A stretch of 34,621 bases of DNA, taken from NCBI GenBank assembly GCA_017513285.1, contig JAFXGD010000031.1, positions 1-34,621 of the forward strand, in the 5' to 3' direction. The stretch is from Alphaproteobacteria bacterium. GTDB taxonomy: Bacteria > Pseudomonadota > Alphaproteobacteria > Rs-D84. The notes beneath the pieces are model-generated. The model saw only the letters and a program-made list of their open reading frames with translations, ran no database searches and was not told the origin of the DNA. This document shows, one piece after another, positions 11,302-19,499 of this stretch. Each line of letters opens with the position of its first letter. Position 1 is the first letter of the stretch. The translations under genes were made by a program, and so were the position numbers.

Positions 11302-12039
11302 TTATATGCCTGGGAAATGACTGTGGGATGCGTTGGGAATGACAACCATTGTATGCCCATTTGTCCATTTTTCGGATAATTTGCGTGGTACAACTTTGTC
11401 ATTTTCTGCGACAAAATGTATTTGTCTGATGTTTGGCATGGAATCCAAATCCATGGATTTGGTCAATGGTTTATCTCCAAAATGTTGGGTCCAATCTGTA
11501 TGGTTCAGCACGCCCGATACAGTTATCCATTGAATAAAGTTTATGTCCGGATTGTTTTTGATAATCAATCCAGATATCAATGCCCCGCCGGAATACCCGA
11601 TAACAGAAACGGGGCGATTGGCCGCAACCTGACGCACGACGTCTTGCATTGCGCTAATTATATCTGGGGAAAATCGTCCATCGGTCCAATCTGATTGTGT
11701 GCAATTTTCAGACATTATATATTGGCATGGTCGTGCGATATACACGACGTTTGGTGCGGCGTCTGCATCGGCCATGTCACGCACCAACGTACTGTTTGGT
11801 GTTGGGTTATGTGTTGGGATTCCCCGTTTTGTAAATGCGTTTCCGTCGCCTTCGATATATATATTAACGGGTGCGGCCTCATCTGTAATTTTTTGATATG
11901 TCATGATGTCGTATTTATCGGTTTTGACAACACGCTGTACCATACCTGACGTGTTGTCCCATTTATTGGCGACACATCCCGTTATAATCAGCATTACAAA
12001 TATCAGACACTTTCTTTTCATATGCATATGATACCGCAT
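11302..12039 (-). CDS. Alpha/beta-hydrolase lipoprotein
   Basis: A 245-aa exported lipoprotein: lipobox IITGC (C22 of the long form), then an alpha/beta hydrolase domain with oxyanion block YIEGDG, ARPCQY, nucleophile elbow GYSGGA, acid in AENDKV and histidine in ASHSHFPG. The triad appears intact. A family with YIEGDG / RPCQY / GYSGG motifs occurs widely in Proteobacteria without an assigned substrate. Start is uncertain: ATG at 12039, or MKRKC at 12021; neither has a Shine-Dalgarno. A weak TATACG (12048-12053) ends 8 nt before 12039, hinting at a leaderless start there. It lies upstream of the GNAT gene on the same strand but with a separate promoter between. Confidence 0.85.
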   Translation of the reverse strand: MRYHMHMKRKCLIFVMLIITGCVANKWDNTSGMVQRVVKTDKYDIMTYQKITDEAAPVNIYIEGDGNAFTKRGIPTHNPTPNSTLVRDMADADAAPNVVYIARPCQYIMSENCTQSDWTDGRFSPDIISAMQDVVRQVAANRPVSVIGYSGGALISGLIIKNNPDINFIQWITVSGVLNHTDWTQHFGDKPLTKSMDLDSMPNIRQIHFVAENDKVVPRKLSEKWTNGHTMVVIPNASHSHFPGI

Positions 12040-12071
12040 TTCTGTGACGTATAAAAGTTAAAAATCTTTTT

Positions 12072-12102
12072 TTGACAAAAATTCTTGACAATTCGATTGA
12101 CA
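12072..12102 (+). promoter_or_regulatory. Triple TTGACA cluster, promoter region of the solenoid protein gene
   Basis: Three TTGACA hexamers at 12072-12077, 12085-12090 and 12097-12102, spaced 13 and 12 bp start to start. The middle copy has a weak -10 (TACTTT, 12108-12113) at a 17-bp spacer; the others have none. On the minus strand the first copy reads TTGTCA and could serve the hydrolase lipoprotein. This may be overlapping promoters or a direct-repeat binding site. Confidence 0.5.
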
Positions 12103-12153
12103 AAGAGTACTTTTAGGACACGATACCTGACGTTTCTAATAAAAGGTTATACC

Positions 12154-12891
12154 ATGACAGAAAAGAAACAGGCCGCCACACGGGCTGCCAAATCGCAGGG
12201 GGGCGATAAGTCGGGGAGAAAAAATAACAAAAACAAATCCATTAAAAAAATCTGGCAACGTGCATGTCGTGTAATTTCTTGGCCATTTCGTATGATTGGC
12301 CGTGGTTTGCGTTGGTTTTGGAATTGGGTATGTGGTGTAAATATCGTTGGTATGGTAAATATAACGTTATTGGTTGCGATAATTGTGCTGTTTACAATGT
12401 TGATATTGGATGTGTGCGGTTGTTATCGCAAACCTGTTGTGGTTGTATCTGCGCCATCTGCCCCCCAGGTCACAATATCTTCGGGAAATTCGCCTGTCAC
12501 ATTGCCTTTATCGGCCCAATCTGGCGACCCGGACAAACGTGTCACTGCAATTAATGTTGCGCAACCAAATCCGGCCAGTGTTCGCATTGCGACCAAACCG
12601 ATTGCCCGTCATAAAAATCAAATTTTGGGCAATACTGTGATTGATGGGCGTGCGGCCGGCACCGTATTAAAATCCGGTATGACGGTCCAAGGTAATTTAT
12701 ATCTGCAAAATATGCATAAATTCACACTGCCATGTGATGTTCGTGTCGAAGGACACTTATTCTTGCGTGACATGGGATTGCTGCAGTTTTGTGGCCAGTT
12801 CACGGTAACAGGCAATATTTATGTCAGTCCTCGTTCATCATTTGGCCCATTGCCAAAAACGGCACGTATTGGTGGGCATTTGATATTTTAA
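12154..12891 (+). CDS. Membrane-anchored protein with C-terminal beta-solenoid-like repeats
   Basis: A 245-aa protein of unknown function. Layout: lysine/arginine-rich cytoplasmic tail (1-60, many KK/RR), one membrane segment (about 66-87), a Ser/Pro/Val-rich linker (95-155), and a C-terminal domain with a repeated G-[NH]-[LI]-[YFI]-[LV] unit at 180-184, 200-204, 220-224 and 241-245, a period of 20, 20 and 21 residues. This regular spacing suggests a short right-handed beta-solenoid similar in style to bactofilins, but homology is not established. Start is ATG 12154 with AAAGG at 12143-12147; an in-frame extension to 12085 has no ribosome site. Followed by a terminator. Confidence 0.78.
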   Translation: MTEKKQAATRAAKSQGGDKSGRKNNKNKSIKKIWQRACRVISWPFRMIGRGLRWFWNWVCGVNIVGMVNITLLVAIIVLFTMLILDVCGCYRKPVVVVSAPSAPQVTISSGNSPVTLPLSAQSGDPDKRVTAINVAQPNPASVRIATKPIARHKNQILGNTVIDGRAAGTVLKSGMTVQGNLYLQNMHKFTLPCDVRVEGHLFLRDMGLLQFCGQFTVTGNIYVSPRSSFGPLPKTARIGGHLIF

Positions 12892-12912
12892 TTACGTTAG
12901 GGTTATTAATTA

Positions 12913-12937
12913 CAACCGCAACATGCGGTTGTTTTTT
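12913..12937 (+). terminator. Rho-independent terminator of the solenoid protein gene
   Basis: Arms CAACCGCA (12913-12920) and TGCGGTTG (12924-12931), loop ACA, then six T. The -35 of the next gene overlaps its 3' arm and T-run. Confidence 0.9.
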
Positions 12938-12957
12938 ATTGCAAAATATGATATAAT
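12929..12957 (+). promoter_or_regulatory. Promoter of the small membrane protein gene
   Basis: TTGTTT (12929-12934), 17-bp spacer, TATAAT (12952-12957) preceded by TG one base upstream (extended -10). It carries the 15-bp element AAAATATGATATAAT (12943-12957) found at two other promoters in this window. The -35 overlaps the preceding terminator. Confidence 0.7.
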
Positions 12958-12989
12958 AACACACATACAAAACCAAGGGAGAGATTGGA

Positions 12990-13244
12990 ATGTTTGAAAA
13001 ATTATTAAATGTTTTTGCGAAAAATTTGGGTTATACGGTTGTTTTGGCGGTTGCATTGGTTGTATTTTTGATTGCATCCGAAGGTCATCTGATTGCCGGG
13101 TTAATAACGGCTGTGTCTGGATTACTGGTGTACACATGTTCGGTTGCGTTGTACAAAGAATACAAAGTTGAATCGGCCAAGAAAGCAACCCCGGTACGCA
13201 CGGCTGTAAAAAAAGCCCCTGTAAAAAAGGCGAAACGCAAATAA
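12990..13244 (+). CDS. Small membrane protein with Lys/Ala/Pro tail
   Basis: An 84-aa protein not recognised as a named family. Two hydrophobic segments (about residues 14-28 and 33-52) are followed by a basic tail made of K/A/P/V repeats (SAKKATPVRTAVKKAPVKKAKRK), probably cytoplasmic and possibly nucleic-acid or membrane-surface binding. The start is supported by a GGGAGAG ribosome site about 7 nt before the ATG, plus its own promoter and terminator, so it is a stand-alone gene. Function unknown. Confidence 0.8.
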   Translation: MFEKLLNVFAKNLGYTVVLAVALVVFLIASEGHLIAGLITAVSGLLVYTCSVALYKEYKVESAKKATPVRTAVKKAPVKKAKRK

Positions 13245-13269
13245 AAAATCCCCATTTTGGGGATTTTTT
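13243..13269. terminator. Bidirectional terminator between small membrane protein gene and secG
   Basis: Arms AAAAAATCCCCA (13243-13254) and TGGGGATTTTTT (13258-13269), loop TTT. The A and T runs flank both sides, so it can stop both the plus-strand gene (stop 13244) and minus-strand secG (stop 13270). Confidence 0.92.
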
Positions 13270-13644
13270 TTATTTTGTTGTATCTGGCTGTGTTGCCGGC
13301 TCTGCCGGTGTTTCCACGGGTGCTTCGGCGGGCGCTTCGACCACAGGTGCGTTTTCTGCATTTTCTTGATGCACGATTTCTTGACGCAGGTGGCTTTGTT
13401 GATTTGCAACTTGGGTTTTAGAAGACACCAACGCCAATGCGGCACACAGTATAAAGAATATCGTCGCCAACCATGCGGTTGCCCGGGTTAAAAAATTTCC
13501 CGCCGCCGCCCCGGTTAATGCACCGCCGAACATAGATGCCGCCGATGAACCAGACATGCCCGAACCTTCGGATTTTTGTAACAAAATCAAACCAATCATC
13601 ATAACTGCAACAATTGTTAACATAACAAGTAATATCGAGAACAT
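13270..13644 (-). CDS. secG: Preprotein translocase subunit SecG
   Basis: A 124-aa protein with the SecG layout: first membrane segment, the loop LLQKSEGSGMSG, a Gly/Ala/Ser/Phe stretch (MFGGALTGAAAGNFLTRAT), and a second membrane segment. SecG associates with SecYE to aid export across the inner membrane. The C-terminus carries an extra A/P/E/T-rich tail of about 30 residues (EAPAEAPVETPAEPATQP), common in alphaproteobacterial SecG. AAGGA lies upstream of the ATG. It lies 47 bp after rnc and is probably the last gene of a lepB-rnc-secG run. Confidence 0.94.
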   Translation of the reverse strand: MFSILLVMLTIVAVMMIGLILLQKSEGSGMSGSSAASMFGGALTGAAAGNFLTRATAWLATIFFILCAALALVSSKTQVANQQSHLRQEIVHQENAENAPVVEAPAEAPVETPAEPATQPDTTK

Positions 13645-13691
13645 TTTTTTTCCTTATGTTTATTTACGCACCGATTTTAACCCCCACGAAT

Positions 13692-14324
13692 TCAAATTGC
13701 AAGGATTTTCAACAGTTTTTCTGCCGCATCTATACTGGCGGCCTTTTTTGATGTGCCGTTGCCTGTGGCGCTGCGTTGCATGGCCGTCACCCGCACGGTA
13801 AAGACCGGGCTGTGCGATGCGCCGGCGGGTTCCAAATATTCATACACGGGCAGGTTTCCCGAATCCAACTGCTGAACCAATTCTTGCAGTCTTGTTTTCG
13901 GATCTTTTGGGGCAACGACATCTGCGGCGGCCAAATCCCGCCATATGGGTACGATGACATTGCGTGCCGCATCAAATCCGCCGTCTAAATAAATTGCGCC
14001 CAATGTGGCCTCCATTGCGTCTGCCAATATATGTTGGATTCGTCCGGCGGTCATATGTCCATGTTTAATCTGCTTATCGATTCCGACATCCTTGGCGACT
14101 TTGGCCAAAGTTTCGGTTGATACCAACATTGCATGTCTGCGTGCCAATTCGCCTTCGGTTTCATTTGGGTACATTGCATACAGTAAATCCGCCACACTTA
14201 AACCCAACACCCGATCGCCGATAAATTCCAATCTTTCATTGTTATGCACGGCATCCACGCCACTTTGAATCATGGCCAACTGCATCAATTCCGGGTTTTT
14301 AAATTTATAGTTTAATTTTATCAT
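13692..14324 (-). CDS. rnc: Ribonuclease III
   Basis: A 210-aa RNase III. The catalytic signature NERLEFIGD holds E30, E33 and D37; the second metal pair is D102 and E105 in ADAMEATLG. A double-stranded-RNA-binding domain follows (about 140-210, starting DPKTRLQELVQ). It processes rRNA and other double-stranded RNAs. Start is taken at ATG 14324, one base after the lepB stop (TAATATG). The longer open frame to 14570 merely reads through lepB in another frame. There is no close Shine-Dalgarno, so translation is probably coupled to lepB. The lepB-rnc order is a conserved bacterial arrangement. Confidence 0.95.
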   Translation of the reverse strand: MIKLNYKFKNPELMQLAMIQSGVDAVHNNERLEFIGDRVLGLSVADLLYAMYPNETEGELARRHAMLVSTETLAKVAKDVGIDKQIKHGHMTAGRIQHILADAMEATLGAIYLDGGFDAARNVIVPIWRDLAAADVVAPKDPKTRLQELVQQLDSGNLPVYEYLEPAGASHSPVFTVRVTAMQRSATGNGTSKKAASIDAAEKLLKILAI

Positions 14325-14325
14325 A

Positions 14326-15204
14326 TTAATTGATTCCCATTCCAAATCTGTCCCATCTGATTTTGTTGCCCCATGTCCACACTGCCAACAAAGGTGCGTA
14401 ATAGTTATGTGAATACCACACGAACCAAACCCGGCCCAAGACATTGTCACGTGGCACAAATCTGATATCACCACGGCTGTCACCACTGTTGTCACGGTTA
14501 TCGCCCATAAAGAAATAGTGATTTTCCGGCACGATAAATTCTTCTGTATTATCAAAGCGTGCATCATCACTCATTTCAATTATTCTGTGTTGCACGCCGT
14601 TGGGCAGTATTTCTGTATATTCTGTTGCGTGGAATACGCCACATGCACCACTGTACATATGACAGAATTCATCTGGTTTGTATTCGATTGTATAATCATA
14701 TGGTGCGGGCTCATTATCGACCCATATTTTGTTGCCTTTGATGGACATATTGTCTTTGTAATAACCAACGCTGCGCATAGATTTTGGCAGTGTTGCAAAC
14801 ACATATGGGCGTGGATTTTCCCGCACGACTTCTGCATCGTTTATATACAGTCGTCCGTTTTTCATTTGGATTTTATCACCGGCTTTTCCGATTAATCGCT
14901 TAACGAAATCTTGTGATTCATTGATTGGGTTGCGGAATACGATGACGTCGCCAATTTCCGGTTCGGTTGCCCAGAAACGGCCATCCCATAATTTCCACGA
15001 ACCGAATGGGAAAGAATATCTGGAATATCCATATGCCCATTTTTCAACAAATATATGGTCACCGATATGCAGGGTTGGAATCATTGAACCCGACGGTATA
15101 TTAAATGGTTCCATCAATAAACTGCGGAACACGATTGCGATAAGTGCACCATAAAATATAGTATTAAACCATTCACGTGCGACATTTTTACTTTTTGCGG
15201 GCAT
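14326..15204 (-). CDS. lepB: Signal peptidase I
   Basis: A 292-aa type I signal peptidase. One N-terminal membrane segment (about 14-32) leads into box B IPSGSMIPTL with the nucleophile S40. The general base lysine is K103 in DFVKRLIG. Box E GDNRDNSGDSR lies near residue 235. It removes signal peptides from exported proteins at the periplasmic face. An insertion between boxes (about 125-220) makes it longer than minimal homologues, as is usual in Gram-negatives. AAAGGA lies 6 nt before the ATG. It is divergent from comM across a 70-bp gap containing a large inverted repeat. Confidence 0.96.
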   Translation of the reverse strand: MPAKSKNVAREWFNTIFYGALIAIVFRSLLMEPFNIPSGSMIPTLHIGDHIFVEKWAYGYSRYSFPFGSWKLWDGRFWATEPEIGDVIVFRNPINESQDFVKRLIGKAGDKIQMKNGRLYINDAEVVRENPRPYVFATLPKSMRSVGYYKDNMSIKGNKIWVDNEPAPYDYTIEYKPDEFCHMYSGACGVFHATEYTEILPNGVQHRIIEMSDDARFDNTEEFIVPENHYFFMGDNRDNSGDSRGDIRFVPRDNVLGRVWFVWYSHNYYAPLLAVWTWGNKIRWDRFGMGIN

Positions 15205-15229
15205 GTAAAATCCTTTATGTTTTTTTGCT

Positions 15230-15268
15230 ATATTATAACTTGCGCAATTTTAATTCAAGTTATAATAT
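15230..15268. promoter_or_regulatory. Divergent lepB/comM promoters inside a 13-bp inverted repeat
   Basis: Perfect arms ATATTATAACTTG (15230-15242) and CAAGTTATAATAT (15256-15268) around a 13-nt centre. Each arm carries a TATAAT: 15261-15266 toward comM and 15232-15237 (minus) toward lepB. Possible -35 hexamers (TTGCGC 15240-15245; TTGAAT 15253-15258 minus) sit at 15-bp spacers. comM starts 8 nt after its -10 with no Shine-Dalgarno (leaderless), whereas lepB has an ordinary leader. The symmetric layout could also bind a dimeric regulator. Confidence 0.7.
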
Positions 15269-15274
15269 GCACAT

Positions 15275-16795
15275 ATGATATCTTTGAAATCTATAATTTT
15301 TAATGGCATGGATGCGACGCCTATTGATGTCCAAGTCCAACTGTCGTCTGGCCTGTCAAAGCCTGAATTTAACATTATTGGTTTGGCAGACAGGGCGGTC
15401 AAAGAATCTGCGGAACGCATTCGCAATGTGCTGTCTGCATTAAATTTACAATTGCCGCCAAAGCGTTTAACGGTAAACCTGTCGCCGGCCGACGTTGAAA
15501 AAAGTGGTTCTCACTTTGATTTGCCTATTTTGTGTGGCATATTGTGTGCCATTGGCGTATTGCCGGAAAATCAATTGGAAAACTATGTGATTTTGGGTGA
15601 AGTTGGTCTGAACGGCACAATTGTCAAGACGGACGCCGTTTTACCGGCCAGTGTTTGGGCCAATTCGCATGATTTGGGTATTATTTGCCCCGGCGACCAA
15701 GGCGCCGAAGCACGTTGGGCGGGTCATGAAAATATTTTGGCCCCATTTCATGTGTTACAGTTAATAAATCACTTTGCCGGAACGCAAATATTGCCGACGC
15801 CCGAATTGACATCGCCCGATACCGCCGGCGTATCCCCATTGGATATGTCCGATGTTCATGGCCAAGCGGCGGCAAAACGTGCATTGGAAATTGCGGCGGC
15901 GGGCGGTCATGCAATGCTGATGGTGGGGCCGCCGGGGTCGGGCAAAACCATGCTGGCGTCACGTTTGCCGACAATTATGCCCGAAATGACGGCAACAGAA
16001 ATTTTAGAAACATCGATAATCTATTCTATTGCGGGCCAATTGAATAACCGTGCATTGATATCTGCCCGCCCATTTCGCAGTGTGCATCATACGTCCAGTC
16101 CGGTTGCCTTGGCCGGTGGTGGTTCGGATGCCCGTCCGGGTGAAATATCATTGGCGCACAATGGTGTGCTGTTTTTGGACGAATTGCCGGAATTTAATCG
16201 TGCGACCTTGGAAATTTTACGTCAACCAATGGAATCTGGTCGCATATTAATTTCACGGGCCCGCCGCAATGCAACATATCCGGCCCGCTTTCAATTAATT
16301 GCTGCGATGAATCCGTGTCCGTGTGGTCATTTGGGCAATGCGGCTTTATCTTGCACCCGTGCGCCCCGTTGTGCCGAAGCGTATCAGAATAAAATATCCG
16401 GCCCATTGTTGGACAGGATTGATTTACACGTCGATGTGGATGCGGTCAACCCATGGGAAATGACGACCGACACGGCCCCACGTGAAACCAGTGCGGCAAT
16501 ACGCGCCCGTGTTGTGGCGGCCCGCGCCCGTCAGATGTCACGTCAAGGCATGGTGAATGCGCATTTGGATGGTGCGGATTTGGAACGCCATGCATCTATG
16601 TCGGATGAACTGATGTCTTTCTTAAATTCTGCGGCGGAAAAGATGGGGTTGTCCGCCCGTGGGTATAATCGCATACGTCGATTGGCACGTACGATTGCGG
16701 ATTTGCGTGCATCTGATACGATTGAAATGTCTGATTTGACCGAAGCGTTATCCTATCGCCCAATTAACCGTGGCAAATACGGCGTAAAACTGTAA
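15275..16795 (+). CDS. comM: YifB/ComM-family Mg-chelatase-like AAA+ ATPase
   Basis: A 506-aa protein of standard family length. The N-terminal ChlI-like domain (about 20-140, with DLPILCGIL and GEVGLNG) is followed by an AAA+ core with Walker A GPPGSGKT (218-225), Walker B LFLDELPEF, a Cys-rich segment MNPCPCGHLG...C...C, and the C-terminal domain. ComM is a hexameric helicase that promotes branch migration during integration of DNA taken up by transformation; other family members have no known role. There is no Shine-Dalgarno, and the ATG lies 8 nt after a perfect TATAAT, so the mRNA is predicted leaderless. A terminator follows. Confidence 0.95.
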   Translation: MISLKSIIFNGMDATPIDVQVQLSSGLSKPEFNIIGLADRAVKESAERIRNVLSALNLQLPPKRLTVNLSPADVEKSGSHFDLPILCGILCAIGVLPENQLENYVILGEVGLNGTIVKTDAVLPASVWANSHDLGIICPGDQGAEARWAGHENILAPFHVLQLINHFAGTQILPTPELTSPDTAGVSPLDMSDVHGQAAAKRALEIAAAGGHAMLMVGPPGSGKTMLASRLPTIMPEMTATEILETSIIYSIAGQLNNRALISARPFRSVHHTSSPVALAGGGSDARPGEISLAHNGVLFLDELPEFNRATLEILRQPMESGRILISRARRNATYPARFQLIAAMNPCPCGHLGNAALSCTRAPRCAEAYQNKISGPLLDRIDLHVDVDAVNPWEMTTDTAPRETSAAIRARVVAARARQMSRQGMVNAHLDGADLERHASMSDELMSFLNSAAEKMGLSARGYNRIRRLARTIADLRASDTIEMSDLTEALSYRPINRGKYGVKL

Positions 16796-16816
16796 AAACC
16801 ACTTGCCAAAAGCTGT

Positions 16817-16846
16817 AAAAACTCTGTACACTGACACAGAGTTTTT
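16817..16846 (+). terminator. Terminator or attenuator between comM and the P-type ATPase gene
   Basis: Arms ACTCTGT (16821-16827) and ACAGAGT (16836-16842), loop of 8 nt, flanked by AAAA and a T-run, starting 21 bp after the comM stop. No strong separate promoter was seen before the ATPase gene at 16863, so partial read-through is possible. Confidence 0.8.
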
Positions 16847-16862
16847 TTATACGGGGGAAATT

Positions 16863-19499
16863 ATGCAAGGTTTAACAACGTCACAGGTTATATCATCACG
16901 CAAACGCTATGGTGCGAATGTTATTCCAATGGCGCAGCCACGGACATGGTTGTCATTTTTGGGCGATGTTTTTCGTGATAAATTGAATTTAATTTTATTG
17001 GCCATGATGGTGATGTTTGGTGTTTTGGCATCATTTGGTTATGGCAGTGTTTACGAACCAATTGGCATTGCGGTTGTTTTAATTGTTGTTTCTGTAATCA
17101 GTGTGGTCACCCGCCTGCGCAGTCAGAAAAACACATTGGAATTACGTCGTCGTGCATCGATGGTTTATTCGAATGTATTGCGCAATGGCCGTGTCAGTCG
17201 TATTGATGCGACCGAATTGGTGGTTGGTGATACTGTGATTTTGGCATCGGGCGAAACGGTGCCTGCGGACGGTTACGTTATATCTGGGAACATATCTGTT
17301 GATAATTCTATTTTGAATGGGGAATCTGATGAATGTGAAAAATCGCCAATTCGTGGATATAAATACGTTGCGGACAAAGCCATCACGGCCGATGACTATA
17401 CGGATAAAAACAGTGTGTTTTCCGGCACACTGGTCCAAAGTGGTACGGCGCACATGCGTGTGACCCGTGTCGGTATGGCGACCGAAAATGCAAAAATCAT
17501 GTCCACATTGACCGATGTGTCCGAAGTTAAAACGACACTTCAGATACAGTTGGATAATTTGGCCGGTCAAATCAGTCGTATTGGATTGGTGTGTTCTACG
17601 ATTATCTGTGTGGTGATGGTGGTTGTTCATTTGTCGTCTGGTACGGTTTCTGGCGGGGTGGGGTGGCTGTATGTCATATTAAATGCATTGACGGTTGCGC
17701 TGACGATATTTGTTGCCGCCGTTCCCGAAGGTCTGCCTTTTATCATTGGTTTGATAACGGGGCAAAACGTTCGCACCATGATAAAGAATAATATCTTGGC
17801 GAAAAATCCAAACAAGATTCCCGAAGCCGGCAACATACAATTATTATGTACCGACAAAACCGGCACATTAACCTTTGGCAATTTGATGGTCGAAGAAAAC
17901 TATGACGGCGCATGTAATGAAATTGGTTTTTCTGGTACGGATGCGCTGCACAACGTTATACGTGATGGTATATTGGCGAACAATCCTGCCACACGTGATG
18001 CGTCGGGTGTCGTTATTGGTGGAACGACGACCGAACGTGCGATATATGCGGCATCTGATATTCATGGCAACGTGGATGCAATGCGTGCAAAATTGCGCAT
18101 TGTAAATCGTTCTGTGTTTGACAGTGCGAAAAAGTTTTCATCTGTTTCGGTCGATCAACCTGATGGCGTTCGCACATACATAACCGGCGCACCCGAAGTC
18201 ATTTTGGCACGGGCGCAGCGCTATTTGGGTACGGATGGGCGGTTGCACAAATTAAATCATGATGCGGTATCCCAATTAATGCATGAAAACATGTCACGTT
18301 CGATGCGTATGGTTGCGATGGGCTATGCCGCAGGTGCAACCACCGGGGATGCGCTGCCCGAAAAAATTGTGTTGTTGTCATTGGTGTCCATGCGTGATGA
18401 AATTCGTCCGGGTGTTCCGGGGGTTGTTGGTCGTTTGCGCCAATCGGGGGTTGGCGTTATGATGATAACCGGCGACATTTTGGATACAGCCCGTGCGATT
18501 GCCCGTGAATGTGGCATTATGTCATCGAAAACAGACATTGCGTTAACGGCGGCGGAATTCGATGCGATGCCTGATGCGAAGGCGTTAAAGAAGTTAAAGC
18601 AAATTCGTGTGATTGCCCGTGCCACGCCGGAAACTAAGTTGCGTGTTGTGAAATTGGCGCAAAGTCTGGATTTATGTATTGGTATGTGTGGCGATGGTAC
18701 GAACGATGCACCTGCGTTAAAGCGTGCCGACGTTGGCTTTGCCATGGGCAACAGTACGGATGTATGTAAATCGGCCAGTGACATTATCATAACCGACAAT
18801 AACTTTATATCGGTTGCGAACAGTATTTTGCTGGGGCGCACATTTATGCACAATGTCACGAATTTCTTGCGCTTTCAATTGCCGATAAATTTCACACTGG
18901 TCACATTAAGTATGTTGATGCCCATTTTGACGGGGCTGGATGCGTTTTGTGCGGTTCAAATATTATTGATTAATATAGTGATGGACAGTTTGAATTCCTT
19001 GGCATTTGGTGGTGAACCGGCCCGCCCCGAATATATGTCTGAACCCGTATTGGGCAAGCGTGCGCCACTGTTATCCCGTGATACAATGAATTACATTGTA
19101 TACAACACATTTGTATGTTTGTTGCTGTTTGGATTGACGTTTGTGCCGCCGATTTCGGATATGTTTGCGGATGCGTCTACACGCATGTCTGCGAACTTTG
19201 CATTGCTGGTAATCGCATCTGTATTTGGAGGCTTTGTAATTCGTTCATCTGGATATAATATTTTCCGTGGTTTGATTGGGAATCCGACCTTTGTGATTGT
19301 TGCGATTGGTATTATATTGGGAACGATACTGACAACCCAATTTGGTGGTGCGGTCCTGCAATTACATCCGTTGGATTTGTCCCAGTGGTTGGTAATCTTT
19401 GGTGTGTCCGTGTTGATAATACCGTTTAACTTTCTGCGTTGTGCGGTATTGCGCATGCAGGCATCGGCCAAAGAAAAAAATAGTTTGTTGTTCACATAA
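16863..19499 (+). CDS. P-type ATPase, P2 (calcium-type) cation pump
   Basis: An 878-aa pump with the full P-type order: N-terminal cation-ATPase domain, two membrane segments, actuator domain with NGES (152-155, replacing the usual TGES), PEGLP in M4 (288-292), phosphorylation motif DKTGTLT (D331), hinge GDGTNDAPALKRADVGFAMG, and a C-terminal bundle of about six segments with NIVMDSLNSLAFGGEP. The VPEGLP and N...MD residues fit Ca2+ or Mn2+ transport (PMCA/SERCA-like) best; the ion is inferred. The start is ATG 16863 because GGGGGAAA lies just upstream; a frame opening at 16803 runs through the terminator. Thr to Asn in TGES is a mild oddity. Confidence 0.9.
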   Translation: MQGLTTSQVISSRKRYGANVIPMAQPRTWLSFLGDVFRDKLNLILLAMMVMFGVLASFGYGSVYEPIGIAVVLIVVSVISVVTRLRSQKNTLELRRRASMVYSNVLRNGRVSRIDATELVVGDTVILASGETVPADGYVISGNISVDNSILNGESDECEKSPIRGYKYVADKAITADDYTDKNSVFSGTLVQSGTAHMRVTRVGMATENAKIMSTLTDVSEVKTTLQIQLDNLAGQISRIGLVCSTIICVVMVVVHLSSGTVSGGVGWLYVILNALTVALTIFVAAVPEGLPFIIGLITGQNVRTMIKNNILAKNPNKIPEAGNIQLLCTDKTGTLTFGNLMVEENYDGACNEIGFSGTDALHNVIRDGILANNPATRDASGVVIGGTTTERAIYAASDIHGNVDAMRAKLRIVNRSVFDSAKKFSSVSVDQPDGVRTYITGAPEVILARAQRYLGTDGRLHKLNHDAVSQLMHENMSRSMRMVAMGYAAGATTGDALPEKIVLLSLVSMRDEIRPGVPGVVGRLRQSGVGVMMITGDILDTARAIARECGIMSSKTDIALTAAEFDAMPDAKALKKLKQIRVIARATPETKLRVVKLAQSLDLCIGMCGDGTNDAPALKRADVGFAMGNSTDVCKSASDIIITDNNFISVANSILLGRTFMHNVTNFLRFQLPINFTLVTLSMLMPILTGLDAFCAVQILLINIVMDSLNSLAFGGEPARPEYMSEPVLGKRAPLLSRDTMNYIVYNTFVCLLLFGLTFVPPISDMFADASTRMSANFALLVIASVFGGFVIRSSGYNIFRGLIGNPTFVIVAIGIILGTILTTQFGGAVLQLHPLDLSQWLVIFGVSVLIIPFNFLRCAVLRMQASAKEKNSLLFT

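Follow-up and report, generated by a model that had tools for sequence, protein, structure and literature searches.

Small inversions are known at chloroplast intergenic hairpins, where short inverted repeats enclose a loop that is inverted between relatives, an arrangement similar to the element described here, although these cases are not known to involve interleaved promoters. Bacterial bidirectional promoters, in the account given by PMC10268837, share a single -10 element, their start sites being 7-25 bp from each other, most often 18, and those of E. coli are described as competing only if one direction is strongly activated (PMC12825309). In yeast, template switching between short inverted repeats is reported to homogenise the arms and to invert the spacer (PMC8604942); no case of bacterial promoter exchange by spacer inversion was found in the portions of the literature searched. 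The 39-bp element between lepB and comM is, with a probability of roughly 0.75, an interleaved divergent pair of housekeeping promoters, the centre and inner arms of which were once inverted, most likely by a template switch.

Structure of the lepB-comM intergenic region

The window, by which is meant the whole stretch of 34,621 nucleotides analysed (contig JAFXGD010000031.1), belongs to a genome (G000) of 1.10 Mb in 88 contigs. The original prediction of a large perfect inverted repeat at 15230-15268 was exact: two arms of 13 bp match perfectly on either side of a 13-nt centre. The features of the region are given below, with counts from 115 loci of the genus or from the 95 that were found by comM homology.

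14326-15204, minus strand: lepB, signal peptidase I (TIGR02227)
15211-15215, minus strand: AAGGA, the likely ribosome binding site of lepB, found in 76 of 95 loci
15223, minus strand: predicted lepB start site with a 19-nt leader, from its position relative to the -10
15230-15235, minus strand: predicted lepB -10, reading TAATAT on that strand; all 115 loci have TANNNT at 17 bp
15230-15242, no strand: left arm, ATATTATAACTTG, containing the lepB -10 together with the comM -35 core
15240-15245, plus strand: predicted comM -35, TTGCGC, with a 17-bp spacer to the TAATAT downstream; all 115 loci have its TTG
15243-15255, no strand: centre of 13 nt between the two arms, CGCAATTTTAATT; reverse-complemented relative to most of the genus, exactly so relative to genome G112
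15253-15258, minus strand: predicted lepB -35, TTGAAT on the minus strand
15256-15268, no strand: right arm, CAAGTTATAATAT, containing the comM -10 together with the lepB -35 core
15263-15268, plus strand: predicted comM -10, TAATAT; of the 115 loci, 99 have TANNNT at 17 bp and 16 have TATAAT at 16 bp
15275 (A of ATG), plus strand: predicted leaderless start site of comM, from its position relative to the -10
15275-16795, plus strand: comM/yifB, Mg-chelatase-like AAA ATPase (TIGR00368)

The start sites predicted from the usual distance between a -10 and its start, 15275 (plus strand) and 15223 (minus strand), are about 52 bp apart. That comM is leaderless and lepB is not, as had been proposed, is supported by the sequences: in 94 of 95 loci the gap between the end of the -10 in the 17-bp register and the comM ATG is 5-9 nt, and lepB is preceded by the AAGGA listed above.

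When the 70-bp intergenic stretch was shuffled 20,000 times (first-order Markov), arms of at least 13 bp arose in 16 cases, so the palindrome exceeds chance, although partial symmetry is to be expected in an AT-rich promoter region. Arm length alone is not special, because several of the other genomic repeats (10 inverted repeats with arms of at least 13 bp in 203 kb of the same genome, versus 2 in ten shuffles summed) are terminator-like. An RNA hairpin was considered and rejected: both predicted start sites lie downstream of the dyad, and an Rfam search of 14900-15600 gave no match.

Elsewhere the same genome carries a dispersed repeat family (30 matches; contigs C2, C4, C14, C16, C30, C31, C49, C62, C78 and C79 of G000) with a period of about 90 bp and one to several copies per site, exemplified by L179:15-200, L181:11628-11876 and L193:2360-2530. 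In each unit the stem varies and the loop that it encloses, GTAGTGTA...ACATGAG, is conserved; Rfam offered a chance-level match only.

Host genus and loci compared

The closest records that bear both a name and this comM are genomes from gut metagenomes; they are labelled Alphaproteobacteria, and some are Candidatus Enterousia, a genus described as belonging to the order Rs-D84 and having reduced genomes near 1 Mb (PMC12306168). These close relatives suggest that the genus of the window is Enterousia. The comM gene is present in 57 of the 59 genomes of the relatives search, and this 57-genome set together with 80 loci of the nearest comM records yielded 95 distinct comM upstream regions, after two contig fragments without a comM alignment (L054 and L055, the latter of which does carry the element) had been dropped. 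Another 20 loci, bringing the total to 115, were picked among the matches listed in a pattern search of 156 genomes of the genus, four of them for a C in the right arm and the rest for variety. These 20 were recovered by the pattern CTTG-N13-CAAG itself and therefore provide no test of that core. The search matched 149 of the 156 genomes, at least one of them (G108) by chance.

Several peculiarities of individual assemblies were observed. G020, which is 94% complete in five contigs, has neither comM nor lepB, through either a gap or loss of the locus; with both genes missing it is uninformative as a natural knock-out. Second lepB-comM elements occur in the assemblies G005 (L055, G005:C17:7426-7450) and G094 (L222, G094:C10), possibly from mixed strains in a bin. 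In G033 (L211, L218) and G059 (L212, L217), lepB matches in two pieces of one open frame with a gap around query residues 178-187, which suggests an in-frame insertion.

Conservation of the predicted interleaved promoters

The motif CTTG-N13-CAAG, with its constant spacing of 13 nt, is found in all 95 loci identified by comM homology, and CTTG begins 35-39 nt before the comM ATG in 94 of them and 48 nt before it in one. All 115 loci have a TANNNT 17 bp from TTG on the lepB side, and 99 of them have one on the comM side, where the remaining 16 have TATAAT at 16 bp, so that TTGnnn and TAnnnT about 17 bp apart, a pair of the sigma70 type, are found in both directions. The original prediction of divergent -10 boxes with interleaved -35 boxes is thus retained as to the pair and amended as to the register: the TATAAT boxes at 15-bp spacing that it had named are present in just 32 (comM) and 10 (lepB) of the 115 loci, whereas the conserved -10 is TAATAT, 17 bp from the -35 and 2 bp further outward. 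The same preference is seen across the genome of the window. Upstream of genes, TTGNNN-N17-TANNNT occurs 31 times in sense orientation versus 15 in antisense and 10.4 in shuffled sequence (2 of the 31 being this element, in a 203-kb unmasked sample with mechanically called genes), whereas the 15-bp spacing is not enriched (11 sense, 16 antisense, 8.5 shuffled).

A simple consensus promoter scan called three sites, neither the lepB nor the comM promoter being among them. One of the calls, TGCACA-18-TATAAT at 15268-15297, overlaps the first codons of comM and, judged from the conserved protein start, is probably coding sequence; a second start inside comM is possible.

If the predicted promoters function as such, each -35 (TTGnnn) would sit within the 17-bp spacer of the other promoter. 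The near-palindrome then arises because the -10 of either promoter runs on into the -35 core of its partner, and the two together make up an arm. RNA polymerase would fit in one direction at a time and cover the opposite promoter, so that lepB and comM would compete; since competition in E. coli requires strong activation, weak mutual interference is the safer expectation here.

Symmetry of the arms

Two readings of the palindrome had been put forward, a binding site for a dimeric regulator or just mirrored promoters, and the latter fits best, once the -10 boxes are shifted 2 bp outward. Conservation of the arms in relatives does extend beyond the -10 hexamers, in that CTTG and CAAG are invariant, yet these lie exactly at the would-be -35 positions. 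That AACTTG-N13-CAAGTT is bound by a dimeric regulator coordinating lepB with comM is an improbable alternative, although the inner half-sites are strongly conserved and perfect arms occur in 12 of the 115 loci. The dyad symmetry of an operator is not retained across relatives: the other 103 loci have imperfect arms, only 6-8 of 13 positions match in 17, and the mean is 10.3 of 13 in the 94 loci with a non-inverted centre (see below). One group of loci has ACCTTG instead of AACTTG on the left while retaining GTT on the right, and the comM -10 is displaced by 1 bp in 16 loci. When the same arms were sought elsewhere, AACTTG-N13-CAAGTT was found at this one site in the genome of the window, as was the full double-promoter pattern, and no regulator gene was seen among the open reading frames adjoining the element. 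A regulator with a single site is possible; a dedicated dimeric operator is not supported, because the arms are often imperfect, the dyad is unique in the genome and no adjoining regulator gene was seen. The associated idea of a link to competence was set aside: the genome has the ComEC and DprA families, but E. coli and other control genomes match too.

Another point in favour of such a regulator is covariation between the arms at one position beyond the needs of the promoters. At this variable position beside the -10, the right arm has C in 10 loci, and in nine of these the left arm has G, which overall is present in 26 of 115 loci; right C entails nine changes on the tree, so that the pairing would have about nine origins. 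For four of the nine loci the left arm was predicted before retrieval, and all four fitted. A simple count that ignores relatedness gives P = 4e-6, and an independent-pairs test gave 3.9 pairs the same way and 0.0 the opposite way (median p 0.125), too few pairs for significance. The covariation is not required by the promoters and suggests repeated conversion of one arm by the other, and the surplus of loci with left G but not right C suggests that copying may run from left to right.

Probable inversion of the centre in one clade

The centre resembles AATTGATTNNGCG at 3-11 of 11 positions in 94 loci, whereas in 20 loci, including the window, it matches the reverse complement at 6-11 of 11 and the forward sequence at 0-4. 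(One locus, L135, with a near-symmetric and ambiguous centre, is not among the 114 scored for orientation, although kept among the 115 of the promoter counts; L150, with a tied score, was counted as non-inverted.) The centre of G025 is the exact reverse complement of that of G007, and the centre of the window is likewise the exact reverse complement of that of G112. In 200,000 shuffles the reverse-complement score of G025 was reached by none and that of the window by 507.

In a tree of comM DNA, the 20 inverted loci form one clade with a single change (SH-aLRT 95; 91 with the first 18 loci), a result that comes from one gene and a quick tree with L135 unscored. At none of 16 loci outside the genus does lepB lie within about 1 kb upstream of comM; a lepB-comM pair of shared origin beyond the genus was therefore set aside as a source of polarity, and the direction of change rests on the rooted comM tree. 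A protein tree of the 95 loci, rooted with eight outgroups, nests the inverted loci within the non-inverted ones, and requires three changes, with G033 (a short row) among the inverted loci and L135 outside them. The inverted state is most likely derived according to this rooted tree, which is built from one gene and has long outgroup branches.

The promoter elements differ accordingly between the two states. The -35 of lepB is TTGAAT in 20 of 20 inverted loci, where that of comM begins TTGC; in the non-inverted loci it is comM that has TTGAAT or TTGAAA (94 of 94). The lepB -10 is TAATAT or TATTAT in all 20 inverted loci and TAAAAT in 89 of the 94 others, having become like the comM -10 in the inverted clade. 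Arm symmetry averages 12.25 of 13 in this clade versus 10.26 in the others.

These observations have the form expected of a template switch: the centre is reverse-complemented with its flanks in place, the event is single on the tree, and the arms are more alike in what the rooted tree suggests to be the derived state. One switch of DNA polymerase between the arms, in the ancestor of the clade, would have inverted the centre and inner arms, and would in the same step have overwritten part of the left arm with sequence of the right, making the left more nearly the mirror of the right. Through the inversion, lepB would have gained the TTGAAT -35 that had served comM, and comM the TTGC-type -35 that had served lepB. 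The comM -10 of the inverted clade is TAATAT and not the TAAAAT expected of a full swap; the right outer arm was therefore not exchanged, or has changed back. Most inverted centres match the reverse complement at just 6-9 of 11 positions, so that later change or partial convergence is needed as well.

Convergence alone, in which selected substitutions remade both -35 regions within the clade and no inversion took place, appears somewhat less probable still than an operator. It would account for the several inverted centres that match the reverse complement at just 6-7 of 11 positions; however, two centres, that of the window included, are exact reverse complements of the centres of relatives, the altered positions extend beyond the -35 hexamers, and the arms and the lepB -10 were altered on the same clade. 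A phase-variable promoter flipped by a recombinase is very improbable, even though a segment flanked by inverted repeats does occur in both orientations, since orientation changes once on the tree among 114 scored loci with no scattered flipping, no recombinase gene was noticed beside the element among the open reading frames listed for 12000-19000, and 39 bp is very short for invertible promoters of that type.

Comparison with known systems

Beyond the single template switch favoured above, the palindrome might itself be a mutational device, a tentative proposal that we consider possible without preferring it: interleaving would force the promoters to contain inverted repeats, between which template switching would recopy the arms and, once, flip the centre, rewriting both promoters in single steps. 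If so, the geometry of shared DNA would couple the evolution of two functionally unrelated genes. The genus offers a natural series of more than 100 versions of one double promoter, including what would be a one-step swap of -35 regions between two genes. Such a swap would mean that bacterial promoter elements can be exchanged by a replication error described in yeast genes. The locus also cautions against taking every perfect palindrome between divergent genes for an operator.

As in the bacterial bidirectional promoters described by Warman, Grainger and colleagues (PMC12825309, PMC10268837), the DNA is pseudo-symmetric, transcription is divergent (here by prediction), the optimal spacer is 17 bp, and opposing polymerases are predicted to be mutually exclusive. 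Unlike those promoters, which share one -10, the pair has two separate, conserved -10s, each at 17 bp, interleaved -35s and predicted start sites some 52 bp apart, which places it outside the shared -10 class. The likeness to template switching in the coding genes of yeast, as reported in PMC8604942, lies in imperfect arms that converge, a centre that is inverted and arms longer than 9 bp; what sets the lepB-comM element apart from the cases described there is that it is a bacterial intergenic promoter pair, with a centre of 13 nt, in which promoter elements would have been exchanged.
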